DNA from: Granulicoccus phenolivorans DSM 17626 = NBRC 107789 = JCM 15570
GTDB taxonomy: Bacteria > Actinomycetota > Actinomycetes > Propionibacteriales > Propionibacteriaceae
Assembly: GCF_000423085.1 (NCBI RefSeq)
Contig: NZ_AUHH01000007.1
Coordinates: forward strand, 62,001 to 126,000
Length of the DNA stretch: 64,000 nucleotides
Reading direction: 5' to 3'
Shown: positions 8,294-54,454 of the stretch, piece by piece
Layout: the number at the start of each line of letters is the position of its first letter
Position numbering within the stretch: position 1 is the stretch's first letter
The notes under the pieces: generated by a model
What the model saw: the letters and a program-made list of their open reading frames with translations, nothing else
The model's database searches: none
What the model was told of the DNA's origin: nothing
Translations under genes and position numbers: made by a program

Positions 8294-8527
8294 GGGACTC
8301 CTGAGAATGGGGGACAGCCAGCAGCCTAGGCAGCCACCCGGTCGCGTGCCGCAGCCGTGGCAGCGGAAACTGCCGCTCATGCTGGACAGATGTGAGACCG
8401 GACACAGGGTCCCGGCGCCTCCCCCCTCCCCTGCGGCACCGAACCGTCCCGATCCCTAGACTTGAAGGGCGCGACACCATCACAGCTGACGAGGCCAGTT
8501 GCCCCCGGGCGGGCCTGAGGGGTGCAG

Positions 8528-11290
8528 ATGACGAATCCGAAGTCGGCCGAACCGACCACCGACCTGATGGCCGACCACACCGCCGACCCGGTCGAGCGAC
8601 CCCATTCGCTGGCCGTTGCCGAGGTCACCACCGGCCTGGCGAGCACGCTCGAGGGGCTGACCAGCGCCGAGGCCGCGGCCCGACTGGAGCGCTTCGGCCC
8701 GAACAAACTGCCCGCGGGCAAGAAGGAATCGGCGCTGATGCGGCTGCTGCGGCAGTTCCACGATCCGATGATCTACGTCCTGATCGGCGCCGCGGTGCTG
8801 ACCGCACTGCTGGGCGAGGTCGTCGACACCATCGTGATCGCCGCGGTGGTGCTGATCAACGCGACCATCGGTTACCTCCAGGAGGGCAAGGCCGCCGATG
8901 CGCTGGAGGGCATCCGGAACATGCTCTCCCTCCATGCCCAGGTACGCCGCGACGGATCCTGGCACACGGTGGACGCCGAGGACCTGGTGCCCGGCGACGT
9001 GGTGCGGCTCAGTGCCGGCGACAAGGTGCCCGCCGATCTGCGGCTGACCAGCACCACCAATCTGCAGATCGAGGAGTCGGCGCTGACCGGGGAATCCCTC
9101 GCCGCCCACAAGAGCCCCGACCCCGTGGCCGCCGACGCCGGGGTCGGCGACCGCAGTTCGATGGCCTTCTCGGGCACCACCGTGGTGGCCGGGTCGGCCA
9201 TCGGGGTGGTCACCGGCACCGGGACCCACACCGAGATCGGCCACATCACCAACATGCTGGACGAGGTGGAGTCCCTGGAGACCCCGCTGGTCCGGCAGAT
9301 GTCGCAGTTCAGTCGGACCCTGTCGGTCATCGTGGTGATCATGGCAGTGGTGATGTTCGGCATCGCCTGGCTGTTGTACGAGCAGGAGACGATCGCGTCG
9401 CTGGTGATGGCGGCGATCAGTTTTGCCGTCGCGGCGATCCCGGAGGGTCTGCCGGCGGTGCTCACGATCACCCTGGCGCTCGGCGTCCAGCGGATGGCCA
9501 AGCGCAACGCGATCACCCGCCGGATGAACTCGGTGGAGACCCTCGGCTCGGTCACCGTGATCTGCTCGGACAAGACCGGCACGCTGACCCGCAACGAGAT
9601 GACCGTACGCTCGGTGGTCACCCGGCAGGGCTCGTACGCCGTGACCGGCACCGGGTATGCCCCCGAGGGGACGATCACCCGCGACGGCGCCGAGGTCGAC
9701 CCGGCCGATCACCCGGACGTGGTCGCCCTGGCGCGGGTGGCGGCGTACGCGAACGACTCCTCGGTCACCCAGGAAGGCGATGCCTGGGTGCTGTCCGGTG
9801 AGCCGACCGACGGCGGCCTGCGTACGTTCGGGCTGAAGGTTGGGTTCGGGGAATCCGAGGACCGGCTGGCCGCGGTGCCGTTCGATTCGGCGTACAAGTA
9901 CATGGCCACCCTCGATGACACCGACCTGCCCGACGGCAGCCACGCCCGGCTGATCCACCTCAAGGGGGCGCCGGATCGGCTGCTGGAACGCTGTGACCAC
10001 CAGCAGGCCCCCGGGCGGCCCGGCCTGCGGGCCGAGGACCTCGAGCCGCTGGACCGGGACTTCTGGGAACAGCAGATCGACGAGCTGAGCGCCCAGGGCC
10101 TGCGCGTGCTGGCGGCCGCGGTGCGGCGCTGGGAACCGGACACCCTCGAGCGGACCGATGTCGATGCCGGGGGCTTCGTCTTCCTCGGCCTGTACGGGAT
10201 CATCGACCCGCCCCGGGAGGAAGCGACGGCGGCGATCCGGGCCTGCCACGGCGCCGGAATCCGGGTGAAGATGATCACCGGCGACCATGCCGGCACGGCC
10301 TCGGCGATCGGCCGGGAGATGGGCATCGGGATCGGTAAGGAACCGATCTCCGGACCCGAGCTGGAGCAGGCCAGCGACGAGGAACTGCAGGTGCTGGCGC
10401 AGCGCCACGACGTGTTCGCGCGGACCAGTCCGGAGCACAAGTTGCGGCTGGTCAAGGCGCTGCAGGCCGACGGCGAGGTCGTCGCGATGACCGGCGACGG
10501 GGTGAACGACGCCCCGTCGTTGAAGCGGGCCGATATCGGCGTGGCGATGGGCATCAAGGGCACCGAGGCGACCAAGGATGCCGCCGACGTGGTGCTCGCC
10601 GACGACAACTTCGCAACCATCGAGCGTGCGGTGGAGATGGGCCGCACCATCTACGACAACCTGCAGAAGGCGATCATCTTCATCCTGCCGACCAACGGCG
10701 CGCAGGGGCTGATCATGTTGGTGGCGGTGCTGCTGGGCTGGACGCTGCCGCTGACTCCGGTCCAGGTGCTGTGGGTGAACACGATCACCGCGGTGACGCT
10801 GTCGCTGGCGCTGGCCTTCGAGCCGGCCGAGGCCGACATCATGAGCCGGCCGCCGCGCAAACCGGGTGGATCGATCCTGCCCGCGTGGGGCCTGATCCGG
10901 ATCGCCTACGTCTCCGTGCTGATCGGCGCCATCACCATCGTCGTGTTCATGGTCGGCATCCAGGTGCTGGACAAGGACCTGGCGGTGGCCCGGACCGTCG
11001 CGGTGAACACCCTGGTGGTCGGACAGATCTTTTATCTGTTCGCCAGCCGGTACGCCCGGGTCACCTCGCTGCGCAAGGAGTTGTTCACCACGAACCCGGT
11101 GTCCTGGCTCACCGTCGCGATCATGATCGTGCTGCAGTTGCTGTTCGTGTACGCCCCGTTCATGCACACCGCCTTCGCCTCGGCCTCGGTCCCGCTGTTC
11201 GACTGGCTGCCGTCGCTGCTGGCCGGGGTGGCGGTGTTCGTCGTGGTCGAGATCGACAAGCTGATCGTGCGGACCCGGCACAAAATGTGA
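8528..11290 (+). CDS. P-type cation-transporting ATPase (P2-type)
   Basis: 920 residues with the full P2-type layout: cation-ATPase N-terminal domain, TM helices, actuator loop with LTGES, TM4 PEGLP, and phosphorylation site [10 protein letters not shown] with D348. The nucleotide-binding domain follows, then [21 protein letters not shown] and six C-terminal TM helices. This class includes Ca2+/Mn2+/Mg2+ or Na+ pumps; the ion cannot be assigned from motifs alone. ATG 8528 has GAGGGG about 7 nt upstream; GTG 8522 is the alternative. The last eight codons (VRTRHKM and stop) form the first unit of a 26-bp tandem repeat. A TAGACT -10-like box is at 8457-8462. Confidence 0.9.
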
Positions 11291-11360
11291 ACGTGCGGAC
11301 CCGGCACAAAATGTGAACGTGCGGACCCGGCACAGAATGTGAACGTGCGGACCCCGCAAC
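11266..11360 (+). repeat. 26-bp tandem repeat, 3.6 copies, overlapping the ATPase stop
   Basis: Units start at 11266, 11292, 11318 and 11344. Units 1 and 2 are identical, unit 3 has one substitution (cacagaatg for cacaaaatg), and unit 4 breaks off after about 16 bp. Each unit contains GTGC ggacccg GCAC, a short inverted repeat, followed by aaaatgtgaac. The first unit encodes the end of the ATPase, including its TGA. Nothing else is recognised between here and the PBP promoter. Confidence 0.9.
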
Positions 11361-13757: not shown

Positions 13758-14933
13758 ATGTCAAACAAGATCATCATCGTCGATGGCGCCCGCACCCCGG
13801 TCGGGAGCTTCGGGAGTGCGCTGAAGGACGTTCCCGCGCACGAACTGGGCGCCGCCGCGGCCAAGGCCGCGCTGGAGCGGTCCGGCGTCGCCGCCGACGA
13901 CATCCAGGAAGTGGTGATGGGCTGCGTGGGTCAGGTCGGCCCGGACGCCTACCTCGCTCGCCGGGTTGCGCTGGCCGCAGACCTGCCGACCAGCGTGCCG
14001 GCGCTGACGGTGAACCGGCTGTGCGGCTCCGGCCTGCAGGCGGTCTGGTCGGCCGCCCAGGAGATGCAGTGGAGCGGCCTGGACCTCACCCTCGCCGGTG
14101 GCGCGGAGAACATGAGCCGGGTCCCGTTCAATGATTTCAACGCCCGCGACGGGTATCGCCTGGGCAATCACACCCTGGTCGACGGCACCCTGGGGCTGCT
14201 GACCGATCCGTTCTACAACATCCACATGGGCGTCACCGCGGAGAATGTGGCCGAGCGTTACCACGTGACCCGCGAGGAGCAGGACGAGTTCGCCCTGGAG
14301 TCGCAGCGCCGGGCCGTCACCGAGGCCGCCGCGGCCGCGTTCGCCGAAGAGATGATCAGCATCACCACCCCGGGCCGCAAGCCGGTCGAGGTCACCACCG
14401 ACGAGCACCCCAAGCCGGACACCACCTTGGAGAAGCTGGCCAAGCTGCGTCCCGCGTTCGTCAAGGACGGCACCGTCACCGCCGGTAACGCGTCGGGGAT
14501 CAACGATGCCGGTGCCGCGATGGTGCTGGCCTCGGAGAAGGCGGTCGCCGAGCGCGGGCTGAAGGGCCTGGTCAGCATCGAGGAGGTCGTGGTTGCAGCG
14601 CTGGAGCCGGAGATCATGGGGTACGCCCCCGTCCCGGCCCTGGCCAAGTTGTGGGAGCGTACCGGGATGGTGCCCGCCGACATCGACGTCTTCGAGGTGA
14701 ACGAGGCCTTCGCTGCCCAAGCGGTCGCGGTCGTGCGGGACGCGAAGCTGGATCCCGAGCGGGTCAACCCGTACGGTGGCGCGATCGCGCTGGGTCACCC
14801 GATCGGTGCCACGGCAGCGATCCTGACCCTGCGGGCGGCCAAGTTCCTCGTCCGGGAGGACAAGGAGCACGCTGTGGTGACGATGTGCATCGGTGGCGGG
14901 CAGGCCCTGGCCGCCCTGCTGCGCCGCTACTGA
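13758..14933 (+). CDS. Acetyl-CoA C-acetyltransferase (thiolase)
   Basis: 391 residues, the standard thiolase II length. Nucleophile Cys89 lies in NRLCGSGLQAV, His347 in ALGHPIGATAA, and the second catalytic Cys377 in CIGGGQALA. It catalyses reversible condensation/thiolysis of acetyl-CoA and acetoacetyl-CoA in fatty acid or ketone metabolism. A monocistronic gene: the PBP ends 65 nt upstream, and a hairpin followed by actcttt lies just downstream. The ATG at 13758 has gaagg 11-15 nt upstream and gttagggt directly before it. Confidence 0.93.
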   Translation: MSNKIIIVDGARTPVGSFGSALKDVPAHELGAAAAKAALERSGVAADDIQEVVMGCVGQVGPDAYLARRVALAADLPTSVPALTVNRLCGSGLQAVWSAAQEMQWSGLDLTLAGGAENMSRVPFNDFNARDGYRLGNHTLVDGTLGLLTDPFYNIHMGVTAENVAERYHVTREEQDEFALESQRRAVTEAAAAAFAEEMISITTPGRKPVEVTTDEHPKPDTTLEKLAKLRPAFVKDGTVTAGNASGINDAGAAMVLASEKAVAERGLKGLVSIEEVVVAALEPEIMGYAPVPALAKLWERTGMVPADIDVFEVNEAFAAQAVAVVRDAKLDPERVNPYGGAIALGHPIGATAAILTLRAAKFLVREDKEHAVVTMCIGGGQALAALLRRY

Positions 14934-14963
14934 GTTCCGGTACGCCGCTGGTCGGTACGCCTC

Positions 14964-15001
14964 CACTGCCTGTCGCCCTGCGTGGCGGGCAGTGACTCTT
15001 T
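14964..15001 (+). terminator. Hairpin terminator after the thiolase gene
   Basis: CACTGCC (14964-14970) and CGCC (14974-14977) pair with GGCG (14984-14987) and GGCAGTG (14988-14994) with a 3-nt bulge. The stem is followed by actcttt, a short U-run on the plus strand. Confidence 0.65.
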
Positions 15002-15040
15002 CGGGGAGAGTGCGTTTCGGGGAGGACCGGTTTGGGTGCG

Positions 15041-15905
15041 GTGTTCGCGGGCCGGCCTCGGGGCGCGCGGGCCGGCGTCGGGGCGCGCGGGCGCGCGTCG
15101 GAGTTCGCGGGCGGGCCTCGGAGTTCGCGGGCGGGCCTCGGAGTCCGCGGGCGGGCCTCGGAGTTCGCAGGCCGCCATCCGGCCCGCGGGCCCTGCAGGA
15201 ACCGCGCACTCCACCCGCGCCCGCGAGCTGCACGAGGACCCGCGAAAACCCCCAAGAGCTCCCGACCCCGACGGCTGCACCAGGCCGACGAACGAGCCTG
15301 GGAAGGCCACCAGCGACGCAACCTGGGTGTTCGCGGGCGGCCGCCGGAGTGCGCAGGCCGCCATCCGGCCCGCTGGCCCTGCAGGAACCGCGCACTCCAC
15401 CCGAGCCCGCCGGCTGCGCGAAGACCCGCGAAAACCCCAAGAGCTCCCGACCCGAGGGCTGCACCAGGCCGACGAGCACCGAGGAAGGCCACCAGCGACG
15501 CAACCTGGGTGTTCGCGGGCGAGCCTCGGAGTCCGCGGGCGAGCCTCGGAGTTCGCAGGCGAGCCTCGGAGTTCGCAGGCCGCCATCGGGCCCGCGGGCC
15601 CTGCAGGAACCGCGTACTGAATCCGGGCCCGCCAGCTGCGCGAGGACCCGCGAAAACACCAGAAGCTCCCGACCCCGAGAGCTGCACCAGGCCGACGAGC
15701 GAGCTGAGGATGGCCACCAGCGACGCAACTTGTCTGTTCGCGGGCCGGCCTCGGAGTTCGCGGCCGAGCCTTGGAATGCGCGAGCCGCCATCCGGCGCGC
15801 GGGCCCTGCAGGACCCGCGTACTCGATCGGGGCCAGCCGACCGCACCACGACCCGCACATGCACCATGGAGCGTTGCCCCGGGGCTGCGCCAGGGCGGAC
15901 GACCG
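15041..15905. repeat. Nested intergenic repeat array: four units with variable numbers of 20-bp sub-repeats
   Basis: The 14934-16008 gap is filled mainly by four tandem units. Each begins with a run of 20-bp sub-repeats (type GAGTTCGCGGGCGGGCCTCG) and continues with a constant block of 142-146 bp. Unit 1: 15041-15326 (7 sub-repeats). Unit 2: 15327-15508 (2). Unit 3: 15509-15733 (4). Unit 4: 15734 to about 15905 (3, with a more diverged block). Each constant block holds a palindromic core around CCTGCAGG. Unit lengths of 286, 182 and 225 do not keep one reading frame, so the long open frames crossing the array are composition artefacts. A diverged fifth copy lies near 30.8 kb. Confidence 0.9.
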
Positions 15906-16008
15906 CCGGTTTCGGTTTCCGACCCGGCGGCACTACTGTGCGCAGTGTCAGGGGAACCGGGTCGCGTGTGAGGTCGGGAGCGCGACCGATCGACGCACCC
16001 GAAAGCCG

Positions 16009-17322
16009 ATGCCCATGAGTTCCGCGGATTCCGCACGCCCTGCGCCCGCCTTTGCTTCCCCCACCCCGGACGCTTCCCCCACCCCGGACGCTTCCCCCAC
16101 CCCAGACGCCTCCCCCACCCCGAACCCGAGCGACACCCCCCGGACCAGCCTGATCCGGACCGGCGGCTGGCCGTTCCTGATCACCAGCTTCATCGGCCGG
16201 GTCCCGGCGTCCACCCTGCAGTTGGGTCTGCTGTTGTACGTCAGCGCGTCCGGCCTGGGGCTGGGTCTGGGCGGTCTGACCATCGCCGCGATCGGGATCG
16301 GATCGGCCCTGAGTGCCCCGATGATCGGGCGACTGGCCGACCGCTACGGCCCGCTGCCGGTGATCGCGAGCTGCACCGTCATCCAGGTGCTGGGACTGCT
16401 CGGCATCTACACCGCGGTCAATGGCGGCGCCGGCGCACCGGTCGTGCTCGGGTGCGCCGCGGTGGTCGGCTTCGCCAATCCGCAGACCGGACCGATCGCG
16501 CGGGCGCACTGGTCCCGACTGGCCCGCCAGCACCGCACCCCGGACCTGATCCGGACCGCCCTGGGGTACGAGAGCGCGGTCGATGAACTGGGATTCATCC
16601 TCGGTCCGGTGCTGGCCAGTCTGCTGGTCGGCCTGCTGGGTCCGAACCCGGCCCTGTGGGTGATGCTGGCGTTCACCGTGCTGGGTCAGGGCCTGTTCCT
16701 GGCGTACCTGGCCACCCGCCGCAACACCCGTACGCCGCGCGAGACCACCTCCCCCGAAGGCGAACGGATCCGGCTGCCGTGGGCGGCGATGTGGTCCCCG
16801 GTGCTCAGCGTGTTCGCCGCCGGGACCACCTTCGGAGCCACCCAGACCGCCCTCACCGCGGTCTTCGATGAGCGCGGTCGCCCGGAGCTGACCGGCCTGG
16901 TCTACGGCTGCGTCGGGGTGGGCAGCGCGATCGCCAGTCTGCTCGTCGTCCGGCTGTCGCCCCGGGTGCCGCTGGGCGTACGGGTGCTGGGGGGCGGGGT
17001 CCTGGTCCTGATCGGCGGGCTGGCGATGATGACCCTGCCCGCGGTCGGCCCCGCGATCGCGATCAGCATCCTGCTGGGGCTGGGGGTGGGCAGCATTATC
17101 GTGAGCTCCTACACCCGGATGGAGCAGATCGCCCCCAGTCGCCGCCTGTCCTCGATGATGACGCTGCTGGCGACCGGGCTCACTCTGGGGATCTCGGCCG
17201 GTGCCGCGGTCGCCGGCTGGCTGGCCCGCGAGCCCGCGCACGGCTTCTGGCCGACCGCCGTGGCCGGCGTACTCGCGATCGTGGCGGGAGTGTCGTTCCG
17301 GTTCGGCCGGGCCCGGGACTGA
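16009..17322 (+). CDS. Major facilitator superfamily transporter
   Basis: 437 residues with about 12 hydrophobic helices and an MFS loop 2-3 motif (GRLADRYGPLPV). The cytoplasmic N-terminus is unusual, with four near-identical SPTPDA repeats (18-bp repeats, 16053-16124). Drug/metabolite efflux is the usual role of such orphan actinobacterial MFS proteins, but the substrate is unknown. Start is ATG 16009 or ATG 16015. The frame stays open far upstream through the repeat array, which is not considered coding. A possible promoter (TACTGT, 15934-15939) would give a leader of about 65 nt. Confidence 0.83.
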   Translation: MPMSSADSARPAPAFASPTPDASPTPDASPTPDASPTPNPSDTPRTSLIRTGGWPFLITSFIGRVPASTLQLGLLLYVSASGLGLGLGGLTIAAIGIGSALSAPMIGRLADRYGPLPVIASCTVIQVLGLLGIYTAVNGGAGAPVVLGCAAVVGFANPQTGPIARAHWSRLARQHRTPDLIRTALGYESAVDELGFILGPVLASLLVGLLGPNPALWVMLAFTVLGQGLFLAYLATRRNTRTPRETTSPEGERIRLPWAAMWSPVLSVFAAGTTFGATQTALTAVFDERGRPELTGLVYGCVGVGSAIASLLVVRLSPRVPLGVRVLGGGVLVLIGGLAMMTLPAVGPAIAISILLGLGVGSIIVSSYTRMEQIAPSRRLSSMMTLLATGLTLGISAGAAVAGWLAREPAHGFWPTAVAGVLAIVAGVSFRFGRARD

Positions 17323-19037: not shown

Positions 19038-19083
19038 CCTCGTAGGGTCCCGCGGGCTCGGTGGAGTTCGCGGTTCCCGGTGG

Positions 19084-19112
19084 GGTACGCGGGTCCGGCG
19101 GGCCCGCGTACC
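19084..19112. terminator. Bidirectional hairpin between convergent genes
   Basis: GGTACGCGGG (19084-19093) pairs perfectly with CCCGCGTACC (19103-19112) around a 9-nt loop, directly abutting the LLM gene stop. The GTACGCGGG element also occurs in the intergenic repeat family, so this gap may hold a degenerate remnant of it. Confidence 0.65.
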
Positions 19113-21140: not shown

Positions 21141-21148
21141 GGAATAAC

Positions 21149-21240
21149 ACACGGGAGTCCGGGGCACCGGGCTGAGAGGAAGGTCAGACCTTCGACCGTC
21201 GAACCTGATCTGGGTCATGCCAGCGCAGGGAGGCTCTCTT
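21149..21240 (+). ncRNA. TPP riboswitch (THI element)
   Basis: The conserved aptamer pieces appear in order: GGGGCACC, CTGAGAGG, then CGAACCTGATCTGGGTCATG and CCAGCGCAGGGAGG. P1 can form between gggag (21153-21157) and ctctc near 21234-21238. Such elements bind thiamine pyrophosphate and shut off downstream genes. The ykoE ATG is about 85 nt further on. No clear terminator hairpin with U-tract was seen in that gap, so control of translation initiation is as likely as attenuation. Confidence 0.93.
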
Positions 21241-21323
21241 CAACCGCTCCACTGACTCCGGTCGTCCAACGACCCGCGCCGGTGGCAGGTTCCCGTGCCC
21301 GATGCGTCACGAAAGGGCACACC

Positions 21324-21968
21324 ATGACCGCAACATCGTCGAATTCCGCCAACCTCGGCGAGGACCAGACCCGCCCCGCCGGCACCGGCCGACTGCGCTG
21401 GCGCGTGGTCGACATCGTGGTCGCCGCCGTGCTGGGAGTGGCCTGCGGGGTGATCTTCGTCGGGTGGAACACCATCGGGTACGCTTGGTTCGCCGCCATG
21501 GACGCCGTCACCCCCGGTCTGGGCGGGCTCGCGGCCGGCGTGTGGTTCCTGGCCGGACCGCTGGGCGCCCTGATCATCCGCAAACCCGGTGCCGCGCTGC
21601 TGGTCGAACTGATCGCCGCGTTCGTTTCGATGGCGATGGGCAATCAGTGGGGCTGGACCACCATGTACTCCGGGTTCGCCCAGGGCCTGGGTGCCGAGAT
21701 CGTGTTCGCCGCCCTGCGCTACCGCCGCTTCACGCTTCCGGTCGCGGTGCTGGCCGGGGTCGGCGCCGGACTGGGCGCGTTCGTCAACGAATTCATCCTC
21801 GGCAACTGGGCCAAGTCGCCGGCGTTCAATGCGATCTACGCCGGCTGCACGATGCTCTCCGGCGCCGTCCTGGCCGGCCTGCTGGGCTGGCTGCTGATGC
21901 GCACGCTGGCGCGTACCGGTGCGCTGGATCGCTTCGCTGCCGGCCGGGAGGCCCGGCCGAGCGTCTGA
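21324..21968 (+). CDS. ykoE: ECF transporter S component, YkoE family (thiamine/HMP)
   Basis: 214 residues with about six hydrophobic segments. The family-typical stretch FVSMAMGNQWGWTTMYSGF resembles the YkoE substrate-binding membrane component, which captures the thiamine precursor hydroxymethylpyrimidine or thiamine for the energy-coupling module encoded next. It lies directly downstream of a TPP riboswitch, so it is expected to be repressed by TPP. ATG 21324 has gaaagg 9 nt upstream; an earlier in-frame ATG at 21282 has no such site. It is followed 1 nt later by the ATPase gene. Confidence 0.9.
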   Translation: MTATSSNSANLGEDQTRPAGTGRLRWRVVDIVVAAVLGVACGVIFVGWNTIGYAWFAAMDAVTPGLGGLAAGVWFLAGPLGALIIRKPGAALLVELIAAFVSMAMGNQWGWTTMYSGFAQGLGAEIVFAALRYRRFTLPVAVLAGVGAGLGAFVNEFILGNWAKSPAFNAIYAGCTMLSGAVLAGLLGWLLMRTLARTGALDRFAAGREARPSV

Positions 21969-30749: not shown

Positions 30750-30990
30750 GGGCGGCCAGCAGCGAGGCAACGCGCGTGTTTGCGGGCACGTATCGGAGCT
30801 CGCGGCCCGCCATCGAGGGCGCGGGCCCTGCAGGACCCGCGCAACGCACGCGGGCCCGCGTACTCGAGCTGGACCCGCGAACAGCACCGAGGCGCGCTGC
30901 CCGAGACTGCACCAGGGCCCGCTGACCGGGACTTCAGCCCGCGAACTGCACCAGGGCCCGCGGGCCGGGGTGATCCGGCCGGCGCCGACC
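30750..30990. repeat. Diverged dispersed copy of the 15-kb repeat
   Basis: The 30630-31200 gap contains a second locus of the repeat family. It has a ggccagcagcgaggcaac lead, two 20-bp sub-repeats (30776-30795 and 30796-30815), the 22-bp palindromic core (30820-30841) and a diverged constant block. The phrase actgcaccagggcccgc is repeated near 30907 and 30947. Similarity to units 1-4 at 15.0-15.9 kb is clear by eye over about 100 bp. The rest of the gap (30990-31145) is GC-rich with nothing else recognised. Confidence 0.8.
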
Positions 30991-53100: not shown

Positions 53101-54454
53101 GGTCTGCGAGTTCGTCCCCGGGGAGAATCTGGCCACCCTGCTCACCGCCGGGCCGCTGAGTGCCCTGGAGGGCGCCTGGGTGGTCCGCGAGGTCGCCGAT
53201 GCGCTGGCCGGGATGCACGCCCAAGGCCTCTATCACCGCCGGATCTCGCCGGACACGGTGGTGATCACCGCCGCCGGTGGGGTGAAGATCGTCGGCTTCC
53301 TCCTGGAGGCGGCGATCGAGGAGCCCGGCACCGTCGATCAGGATTCCGCGGAGCAGGACACCACCGACCTCGGCCGGTTGCTGTACGCCACCCTGGTCTC
53401 CCGCTGGCCGGGCGGACCGGCGTACGGGCTGGCCGCGGCACCGACCGGTTCGGACGGGACCTGCCTGACCCCGCGTCAGGTCCGGGCGGGCGTCTCGCCG
53501 GCGCTGGACGGAATCTGCGACCGGATCCTGTCCCTGTCGCCGCGCCAGCACGGCCGCCCGATCACCTCGGCGAAGGACGTGGCCGCCGAACTGAGCGCGG
53601 TCCTCGGGACCGCGGACGCCTCCCACGATCTGGAGCGTCGGCTGCGCTACCCGGTCCAGGTGGTCACCTTCGGGGAACCGGCGGTCCCGGCCCGCTCGGC
53701 CCGCAGCCCGCACACCCCTGCCGGGTCGGTCCCGGGCTACGGTCCCGGCGAGATCGATGCGGACGCCACCGCCCCCCAGCAACCGATCGACCTGGCCGGG
53801 CCCGACTATGAGCCCGAACCGGTCACCGACCCGACCCGTCCGGTCCACCGGCCCCCCAGCGGCCGCCACCAGACCTGGCGCCCGTGGCTGCGGATCCTGG
53901 TCGCGGTGGTGATCGGCATCCTGATCTGCTCGCTGATCGTGGTCGCGGTGACGCTGAACCGGAACCGATCCGGCACCACGGCGCCAAAGGCGGCCACCGG
54001 GCCGGTCGTACTGTCGATCACCGGAGCCAAGGACTTCGATCCCGAGGGCGCCACCCGCGAGGAGAACCCGGACCAGGTGGCCCTGTCCCATGACGGCAAC
54101 CCGAGCACCGCCTGGCACACCGTCGTCTACAACGCCGCGAACCTCTCCGGGAAGTCCGGGGTCGGGGTGTATTACGACCTCGGCCGCGAGGTCGCCGTGT
54201 CCCAGGTCCGGCTGACCCTGGTGGGCACCGGGACCAACGTGCAGATCCGGGTCCCGGACCGGGCGGGGGACGCCGTGCCGACCGATTCCGCCACCCAGTG
54301 GCGCACTGTCGGGGAGGCCGACCGGACGCAGGAGACCACCGAGATCGCGGTCAGCCAGGTGAGCACCCGGTACGTGCTGGTCTGGCTCACCTCGATTCCC
54401 GGTACGCCCGGCAACTATCAGGGCGGAATCGCCGAAGTCGAGTTCATCGGATAA
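50162..54454 (+). CDS. murJ: Lipid II flippase MurJ fused to pseudokinase and extracytoplasmic domain
   Basis: 1430 residues. Disordered N-terminus (1-194); MurJ/MviN flippase core with about 14 TM helices (about 195-730); acidic disordered linker with GGSGDS repeats; kinase-like domain (about 900-1155); TM helix (about 1242-1265); and a beta-rich extracytoplasmic C-terminal domain (1280-1430). The kinase-like domain lacks a VAIK lysine (VLIH), has HRR for HRD and no DFG, so it is a pseudokinase. This matches mycobacterial MviN (Rv3910), whose phosphorylated pseudokinase binds the FHA protein FhaA. It flips the peptidoglycan precursor. Start GTG 50162 overlaps the previous stop. Confidence 0.95.
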   Translation: MTDPHGEITTDPAQARWRGTPPAGRDDLPDTVPLSTSDQPTQRDRRAPDSWAPADSPDEPEAVRTRPLPTPPLTRQQGTAPVNADAETAALPVVADDATAPLPSGGTGQAPHGGTGNGPVSAADAETTVLPVVDPVSAGSAPEAPDRSMSPRSDGDRPDPDSPADGPDSPGSDSADSADSPGPDSGTADRDGGRAATSRLLSAGALMAAGTMVSRILGFVRVALLAFVLGNGTRQADMFNIATTIPTSLYILFAGGALNTVLVPQLVRAAKNDADGGEAYTNRIITAFSLLIGAVTLILTVGAPVVTTIYSADAWRAPELAEHWKSMVFLAYLCMPQVFFYGVFFLLGQVLNARDHFGPMMWAPIANNIIQLLVLGLYLGIWGTSDGASPFTGPQAGLLGGGATFGIIVQSAVMVIWLRKIGYRYRPRFDLKGQGLGHTFHLAKWTLGFVAVNQLVLVVVDRLATSATAGGSGAGLTVYNNAYLMFVLPHSLITVSLATAMLPSASRLAANGDLAGVREETLRTIRLATSLVLPAAVAFLALAHPVVRLLFGHGAGAEDAAYVGWTLMAFAIGLVPFTVQYICLRAFYALEDTRSTFFIQIAIGAVNVIAGVGIVYAVGDPAWVAPSLALAYSLSYVVGLAISFHQLSRKLPDLRFAVVAKHLLRVFLAVAPAGLLAWGITTLLASDSVLIEAAVLLLAAVVALVVFFALARLIRITEVTSMLDAVLRRVRRRGGGSGGSGDSGDSGGSGGPEGPPGPDGDDPGTGPAADPDAEAETRALSTAATELGSGQSAAAPGLPEADSGTLPLPRDTGADGTDEYAGNPAGEDTLDPGPPTDPGPSPAYPVAPAATPQPRYAMPMYADRPASAASAGEDPDTEETNPLEVGDAADEDFHPIGGRVGDTLGNRYQLQELLVRRPTSETWRALDDILSRSVLIHRLAPEDPNNPLIMNAARRAAAATDARFLRVLDVIEEDPAGPFVVCEFVPGENLATLLTAGPLSALEGAWVVREVADALAGMHAQGLYHRRISPDTVVITAAGGVKIVGFLLEAAIEEPGTVDQDSAEQDTTDLGRLLYATLVSRWPGGPAYGLAAAPTGSDGTCLTPRQVRAGVSPALDGICDRILSLSPRQHGRPITSAKDVAAELSAVLGTADASHDLERRLRYPVQVVTFGEPAVPARSARSPHTPAGSVPGYGPGEIDADATAPQQPIDLAGPDYEPEPVTDPTRPVHRPPSGRHQTWRPWLRILVAVVIGILICSLIVVAVTLNRNRSGTTAPKAATGPVVLSITGAKDFDPEGATREENPDQVALSHDGNPSTAWHTVVYNAANLSGKSGVGVYYDLGREVAVSQVRLTLVGTGTNVQIRVPDRAGDAVPTDSATQWRTVGEADRTQETTEIAVSQVSTRYVLVWLTSIPGTPGNYQGGIAEVEFIG

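Follow-up and report, generated by a model that had tools for sequence, protein, structure and literature searches.

The genome of Granulicoccus phenolivorans carries, in a gap of 1.08 kb between a thiolase gene and an MFS transporter gene that both lie on the plus strand, an array of short repeats that raises a simple question: is this a gene, a plain tandem repeat, a mobile element, an RNA structure, or a site at which the chromosome itself is bound? We addressed this question in a window of 64,000 nucleotides, the whole stretch of DNA analyzed here, and in the genomes of related bacteria. The evidence suggests a putative chromosome-level binding site rather than a gene. With its rigid geometry, genus-specific half-site, and natural variants in unit number and core orientation, the array family offers a test bed for the origin of extragenic repeats; it is also useful for studying the binding of chromosome-organizing proteins and the survival of palindromes in bacterial chromosomes.

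Architecture of the array

The original prediction described four tandem units in which a 20-bp sub-repeat occurs 7, 2, 4, and 3 times, and our recount of the CGCGGG-type sub-repeats ahead of each centre gave the same numbers for units 1 to 4 (15044 to 15905). The unit lengths proposed there, 286, 182, and 225 bp, match block starts at 15044, 15330, 15512, and 15737. Tandem Repeats Finder reported 20-bp arrays at 15046-15172 (score 156), 15514-15599 (score 107), and 15736-15787 (score 62), and the self-identity of the 15044-15905 stretch is 0.44 at a lag of 20 versus 0.30 to 0.34 at lags of 18, 19, and 21. The "constant block" said to follow the sub-repeats is present, but it is not one plain block: inverted CCCGCG copies to the right of each dyad centre show that it holds the second arm of a palindrome. 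Each unit is an imperfect palindrome in which CGCGGG recurs every 19 to 20 bp, followed by the centre CGCGGGYCCTGCAGGRSCCGCG and then by CCCGCG every 19 to 20 bp; the dyad centre CCTGCAGG lies within CGCGGGY-CCTGCAGG-RSCCGCG at 15192, 15378, 15600, and 15805. Because of this inverted second arm, the unit is an interrupted palindrome rather than a plain VNTR (Table 1). The palindromic layout, the dispersed extragenic family, and the recurrence in related genera were all missed by the original prediction.

Table 1. Array units, flanking genes, and related features (window positions unless a contig is named)
Feature	Position	Strand	Remarks
Left arm of unit 1: seven 20-bp sub-repeats (CGCGGG/CGCAGG + N14)	15044..15184	-	
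Unit 1 centre, CGCGGGC-CCTGCAGG-AACCGCG	15185..15206	.	
Right arm of unit 1, with CCCGCG at 15220 and 15239, plus the spacer before unit 2	15207..15329	.	
Unit 2: 2 sub-repeats, centre 15371-15392, right arm, spacer	15330..15511	-	
Unit 3: 4 sub-repeats, centre 15593-15614, right arm, spacer	15512..15736	-	
Unit 4 (last, ~169 bp): 3 sub-repeats, centre 15798-15819, right arm	15737..15905	-	End as in the original prediction
Thiolase gene, flanking	13758..14933	+	Pfam PF00108, PF02803
MFS transporter gene, flanking	16009..17322	+	Pfam PF07690
Single-unit second family member within the window (centre 30820-30841; CCCGCG repeated several times to the right)	30777..30966	-	Profile match C5:92778-92882
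Possible short remnant: CGCGGG/CGCGGT in 3 copies spaced by 19-20 bp, with a GCGGGTCCGGCGGGCCCGC palindrome; flanking genes convergent	19048..19112	.	By eye
Second array type, own genome	C8:142216, C8:142866, C7:34301, C10:18296, C11:44618-44893, C14 end, C47 end, C42:679		L101, L103, L105, L107, L147-L149, L157

Coding potential

That the array might be a protein-coding repeat is a reading to which we give next to no credence, although five of its six frames are stop-free and the frame of the MFS gene is open upstream through the array. The stop-free frames follow from the 75% G+C of the array. Codon log-odds range from -0.33 to -0.45 per codon across all six frames, compared with +0.56 and +0.41 per codon for the neighboring genes, and a Pfam search of three open array frames returned no match, in accord with the predicted non-coding status; the 286- and 182-bp units also shift the frame, as had been argued from the unit lengths. 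Rfam matches at gathering score within the window were confined to a tRNA and a TPP riboswitch, both outside the array.

A dispersed extragenic family

A search of the genome for further copies, a check that the original prediction had proposed, places the array in a dispersed extragenic family of 48 loci. One unit used as a blastn query gave at least 31 matches in its own genome (best 40 of 158 candidates scored), and a profile, R1, built from 52 oriented copies gave at least 156 matches at E ≤ 0.01 (best 150 of 10,739 candidates scored). Once the two strands of this near-palindrome were merged, the 150 listed matches resolved into at least 90 places at 48 loci, 20 of which are nested, with two or more places or centres, and at least 9 of which lay outside the sequences available when the profile was built. 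The exact core pattern GCGGGNCCTGCAGG occurs 33 + 29 times in the genome versus once for its reversed control, both strands of the near-palindrome being counted. Family membership rests on the profile search, since at two mismatches the core pattern (670/651) shows no excess over the control (688/729). The possible remnant in Table 1 is absent among the profile matches listed for this genome.

These arrays appear to break assemblies: 21 of the 48 loci have a contig end at most 700 bp away, versus 1.2 expected, and such families are for this reason probably under-reported. Further copies are hidden where arrays are cut at contig ends, and the true number of loci is slightly below 48, some contig-end loci (the starts of C5 and C22; the ends of C7, C40, and C44) resembling one sequence on two contigs and probably being the same sequence seen twice. 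Contigs C5 and C22 probably join at their starts, which look like one sequence in inverted orientation. Another tandem repeat, of GGTCACCACCACAAGGCCGGCCCACCCAGT type, stands beside arrays at C5:1-2041 and C22:1-2060 (L005, L006).

The half-site in this species is TTCGCGGG, repeated every 19 to 20 bp. We placed one copy each from 44 of the 48 loci on a common grid (C22, C44, and the ends of C7 and C9 were excluded as duplicate or cut), allowing at most one mismatch. CGCGGG falls at -49 in 25 loci, at -30 in 40, and at -11 in 39, and CCCGCG at +5 in 38, at +24 in 40, at +44 in 34, and at +64 in 18 of 42, a symmetric hexamer grid that spans more than 100 bp; CGCGGG also occurs at +7 (27 of the 44 loci) and +26 (17), overlapping CCCGCG sites. 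The element has a polarity, with an A arm of CGCGGGTTGGGTTCGGTNG type and a B arm of GCCGGATCCGGACCCGCGAG type, and the A-to-B strand of the window array is the minus strand. Not included in the alignment of copies were five that were duplicates or did not belong to the family, one truncated at a contig end, one extra tandem copy of C7, and all that scored below 52. Identity between loci is 0.93 at the centre, 0.81 in the hexamers, 0.51 in the linkers, and 0.30 in sequence 100 to 200 bp away, the conservation of centre and hexamers being partly ascertainment because copies were found and aligned by the same motifs. Linkers are similar inside one locus and dissimilar across loci.

Genomic surroundings

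Centres fall outside gene calls in 43 of 44 cases, and the exception overlaps a 33-codon call at threshold score; the calls were made with a script that scores codons and was trained on the window, so they are approximate, and those for the genus g34 described below are less exact still. Both flanking genes were available for 29 elements, the pair being codirectional at 16, convergent at 9, and divergent at 4. The 51 adjacent gene pairs of the window divide into 38, 7, and 6, and the 18 pairs with a gap of at least 100 bp into 12, 0, and 6, in the same order. The excess of convergent pairs at elements (9 of 29 versus 7 of 51 window pairs) is modest. Of the flanking gene ends that face an element, 43 are 3' ends and 30 are 5' ends. 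At codirectional loci, the A-to-B strand runs with the genes in 9 cases and against them in 7, so that there is no strand preference. The surroundings of 26 g34 stretches are codirectional in 9, convergent in 12, and divergent in 5. We rejected a polar, KOPS-like pattern, as neighboring elements on one contig share orientation 11 times and oppose each other 8 times in a hand count.

The same layout in related genera

Searched over 117 genomes of the family, R1 matched only this genome and G059 at E ≤ 0.001 (best 33 of up to 11,441 candidates per genome); over 245 genomes of the order, it matched only this genome, G059, G217, and G239 at E ≤ 1e-4 (best 15 candidates per genome). All three belong to the same taxonomic family as the window species. 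The G059 array has an identical layout with the half-site TTCGCTGC. Further G059 arrays (L108-L111) occur downstream of rplL and tuf, genes read by eye; they are probably not the terminators of these operons, since they sit beyond ordinary-looking terminator hairpins.

Pattern searches are tied to the half-site letters chosen, and other genera may have further spellings. The pattern TTCGCKGSN{10,12}TTCGCKGS matched in 41 of 117 genomes, with 22 matches here, 7 each in G059 and G004, and no more than 3 in any of the remaining 114, its control giving at most 2 per genome. The G004 arrays consist of 19-bp CCCGCGAA repeats, and the three stretches read there had no clear mirrored arm. The pattern TTYGCTGGCCN{8,13}TTYGCTGGCC gave 20, 17, 19, and 24 hits in G085, G217, G239, and G261, four species of genus g34 and 4 of the 38 g34 genomes searched; elsewhere it gave 1 hit here and none in the remaining 192 of 197 genomes.

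Two side observations concern other arrays. In G074, near contig ends (C10 end and C19 end; L135, L136), CCCGCGAA copies are interleaved with CCCTTCGACAAGCTCAGGG palindromes or repeats, and we take the CCCTTCGACAAGCTCAGGG palindrome to resemble a repeat of other bacteria. The genome of the window species has a second, intergenic-looking array type with GCAGCGAA / TTCGCTGC (or CCAGCGA) half-sites at a spacing of ~20 bp and a different centre (Table 1).

Geometry and evolution of orthologous loci

Genus g34 allowed us to compare the layout between species. In 34 stretches, fetched because they matched two half-sites, all 85 of the 85 same-direction spacings below 70 bp are 20 bp (53), 19 bp (25), or 39 bp (7). 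All 34 direction switches run from > to <, at 36 bp (20), 56 bp (13), or 55 bp (1); the 36-bp switch breaks down into ~19 + 17 if one includes a degenerate inner half-site, read by eye in L182, and this 17 is close to the 18 bp of the window genome and G059. Cores of the form GYTYGC-N16-GCRARC number 32 in 31 of the 34 stretches and are nearly one sequence, CTGCGCTGTGAGGCCA or its inverse.

Alignment across two or three species was possible for seven orthologous loci. Unit number differs between species by steps of ~20 bp at four of them (III, V, VI, and VII), and three (III, IV, and VII) carry an inverted core, in which 2, 0, and 4 of 46 positions differ after inversion versus 16, 12, and 16 as the sequences stand. 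A private G/C variant kept at locus III marks a true inversion there. With one species pair taken per locus and inverted cores masked, changed positions number 11 of 348 in half-sites (3.2%), 31 of 302 in linkers (10.3%), and 198 of 1985 in flanks (10.0%). Half-sites thus differ from flanks (p = 9e-6) and linkers resemble them (p = 0.84), although these and the following p-values are optimistic because sites within a locus are not independent. Unit indels blur the alignment at locus VII, where 7 of 42 half-site positions changed; without that locus the counts are 4 of 306, 19 of 271, and 167 of 1736, respectively (half-site versus flank, p = 2e-8; linker versus flank, p = 0.21). Half-site positions outside the search-pattern match changed at 0 of 67 (p = 0.002), a small count that matters because the stretches were selected for matching two half-sites. 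The step-wise variation in unit number between these species and the slower change of half-sites than of flanks support the earlier description of a maintained, VNTR-like repeat.

RNA structure

A transcript read from A to B would form a long hairpin that might terminate, stabilize, or process mRNA, a role for the family that we regard as unlikely. In its favor, among 34 loci retained after a score cut of 45, the A-to-B strand gave the more stable fold in 29 (mean -58.6 versus -47.8 kcal/mol), its folds beat dinucleotide shuffles on average (mean z of -2.5; other strand, -1.6), and more 3' than 5' ends of flanking genes face the array. Real copies, however, are no better folded than chimeras built from halves of different copies (-58.6 versus -61.0 kcal/mol), natural copies in fact folding worse by ~2.7 sd of the chimera mean, and Watson-Crick mirror pairs make up 47.7% versus 49.8% with swapped halves, with no copy-specific covariation. 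We therefore rejected an RNA element as the first choice, the mirror-pair count, RNAalifold (6 pairs only), and chimera folding all being without copy-specific compensation. Since chimeras fold slightly better, the hairpin is a by-product of the common dyad grid, not kept by compensatory change. Terminator-like sites in 14900-16100 number 2 versus 0.5 expected (sd 0.8), with none at any of the four array centres; this and the 9-to-7 orientation count led us to reject an intrinsic terminator, whose hairpin would precede a T-run and follow the direction of the upstream gene. The lack of strand preference, together with the lack of within-copy compensation, points to a role at the level of DNA, which the 9-to-7 strand agreement at codirectional loci fits.

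Comparison with known repeat systems

Like REP and BIME elements (PMC3733652, PMC2817692), the array family is dispersed, extragenic, palindromic, clustered, and lineage-specific. REPs are palindromes of 20 to 40 bp, most of them GTAG- or CGTC-tagged, whereas the array family is a dyad of more than 100 bp with phased half-sites (PMC3733652, PMC2817692). The trait shared with REPs and REPINs is an extragenic, dispersed, high-copy distribution (at least 90 places at 48 loci; 43 of 44 centres extragenic). Inspection of the 44-copy consensus by eye showed no GTAG or CGTC tag. REPs lie mostly between unidirectional and convergent genes (PMC3733652), and BIMEs are reported to bind gyrase and IHF, with Pol I bound to REPs (PMC2817692). 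ChIP-Seq has been used in Mycobacterium tuberculosis to study how topoisomerase occupies convergent and divergent gene pairs (PMC5433769). BIMEs may be the nearest functional analogy for the array family, in which binding is putative.

That the family is instead a non-autonomous mobile element, a MITE or REPIN moved by a transposase, strikes us as unlikely. Its copies are dispersed, palindromic, extragenic, and lineage-specific in number, as such an element would have them, but we noticed no fixed ends in the copies read, and the REP-type transposase Y1_Tnp (PF01797, RAYT) has no match in the window species' own genome (98.5% complete) or in any of six other array-bearing genomes, a control being positive in 5 of 14 genomes. 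REP or REPIN elements mobilized by RAYT were rejected as an identity for the array, there being no PF01797 in the seven array genomes and no tagged palindrome of 20 to 40 bp.

MIRUs are direct repeats of roughly 50 to 100 bp. The MIRU-VNTR loci of M. tuberculosis, also an actinobacterium, share with the array family dispersed intergenic tandem repeats of variable unit number, which in the array family varies between g34 species, but they are not known to have its palindromic centre and inverted second arm of 20-bp half-sites. A plain VNTR or MIRU-like identity was rejected because the family does not consist of direct repeats only, an inverted CCCGCG arm standing at +5, +24, and +44. In chloroplast spacers, small hairpin-loop inversions flip a short segment between inverted repeats in related species. 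In g34, by contrast, what flips between species is itself the conserved core shared by a family of repeated elements. Iteron and operator arrays place short protein-binding sites in helical phase; the array family differs in being scattered over dozens of loci and arranged as dyads, with a putative binding protein. By the tests made, the array family is a variant of extragenic palindromic repeats that is neither REP/REPIN nor a plain VNTR. A literature search, with most subscription journals outside its reach, found no description of such arrays, and we know of no well-described actinobacterial counterpart of REP or BIME elements. The main text of the first REP source does not mention "Actinobacteria," "propioni," or "streptomyces" (PMC3733652), nor does the available portion of the second source mention "actinobacteria" (PMC2817692).

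Phased binding or neutral growth

Our leading but still tentative explanation is that the array belongs to an extragenic family of phased dyads serving as a putative DNA-binding array, helically phased and with a BIME-like role. Half-sites every 19 to 20 bp stand about two helical turns apart, direct on one side of the palindromic centre and inverted on its other side. A putative DNA-binding protein would load on the centre and spread cooperatively over the phased half-sites along one face of the helix, and the resulting nucleoprotein platform between transcription units could act as a topological boundary or supercoil sink, like the BIMEs of Escherichia coli. Unit number would change through slippage between 20-bp repeats, and the core may flip via exchange between arms that can form a strong hairpin or cruciform. 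Conservation of the grid between loci and between species, and under different spellings between genera, alongside drifting linkers, fits a putative protein or protein array that reads the short half-site on one face of the helix and is anchored at the dyad core.

The main rival, close behind phased binding and itself quite possible, holds that these are self-propagating or neutral hairpin minisatellites, grown from a GC-rich, palindrome-prone seed by 20-bp slippage, template switching, and gene conversion and spread without host function. Neutral growth of this kind agrees with the varying unit number (four of seven) and inverted cores (three of seven) at orthologous loci, with linkers alike within a locus and different between loci, with the 20 of 48 loci that have two or more centres, with the strong hairpin potential, and with an expansion confined to few lineages among the sampled genomes. 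Slippage alone can give both tandem growth and a rigid 20-bp spacing, which counts against phased binding, as do the changed half-sites of locus VII and the genus-specific half-site letters, a common reader across genera being putative. Neutral growth sits poorly, however, with orthologous half-sites that change about one-third as fast as linkers and flanks and with the higher identity of hexamers and centre than of linkers between loci, partly ascertainment as this is; one geometry spelled with different half-site letters in separate genera is hard to obtain without a geometric constraint.

Phased binding may be extended to a broader proposal, possible but less likely than not, that Propionibacteriaceae carry an undescribed class of extragenic nucleoprotein arrays whose TTYGCKGS-form half-sites are held in strict 19- to 20-bp phase and mirrored on an evolutionarily inverting core. 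On this proposal, constant geometry with genus-specific letters would imply a putative co-evolving, sequence-specific protein that organizes the chromosome between genes.

Other features of the window

Three further features lie outside the array. A 26-bp repeat (TGAACGTGCGGACCCGGCACAAAATG), present at 11262-11358 in 3.7 near-perfect copies, runs over the end of the frame at 8522-11290, which reads by eye as a cation-transport ATPase. A tRNA-Pro (cgg) was called by ARAGORN on the minus strand at 54046-54135, where the Rfam tRNA model made no report at gathering score. On the plus strand, a TPP riboswitch (RF00059, 57.3 bits) at 21141-21248 precedes a run of genes that starts at 21324.
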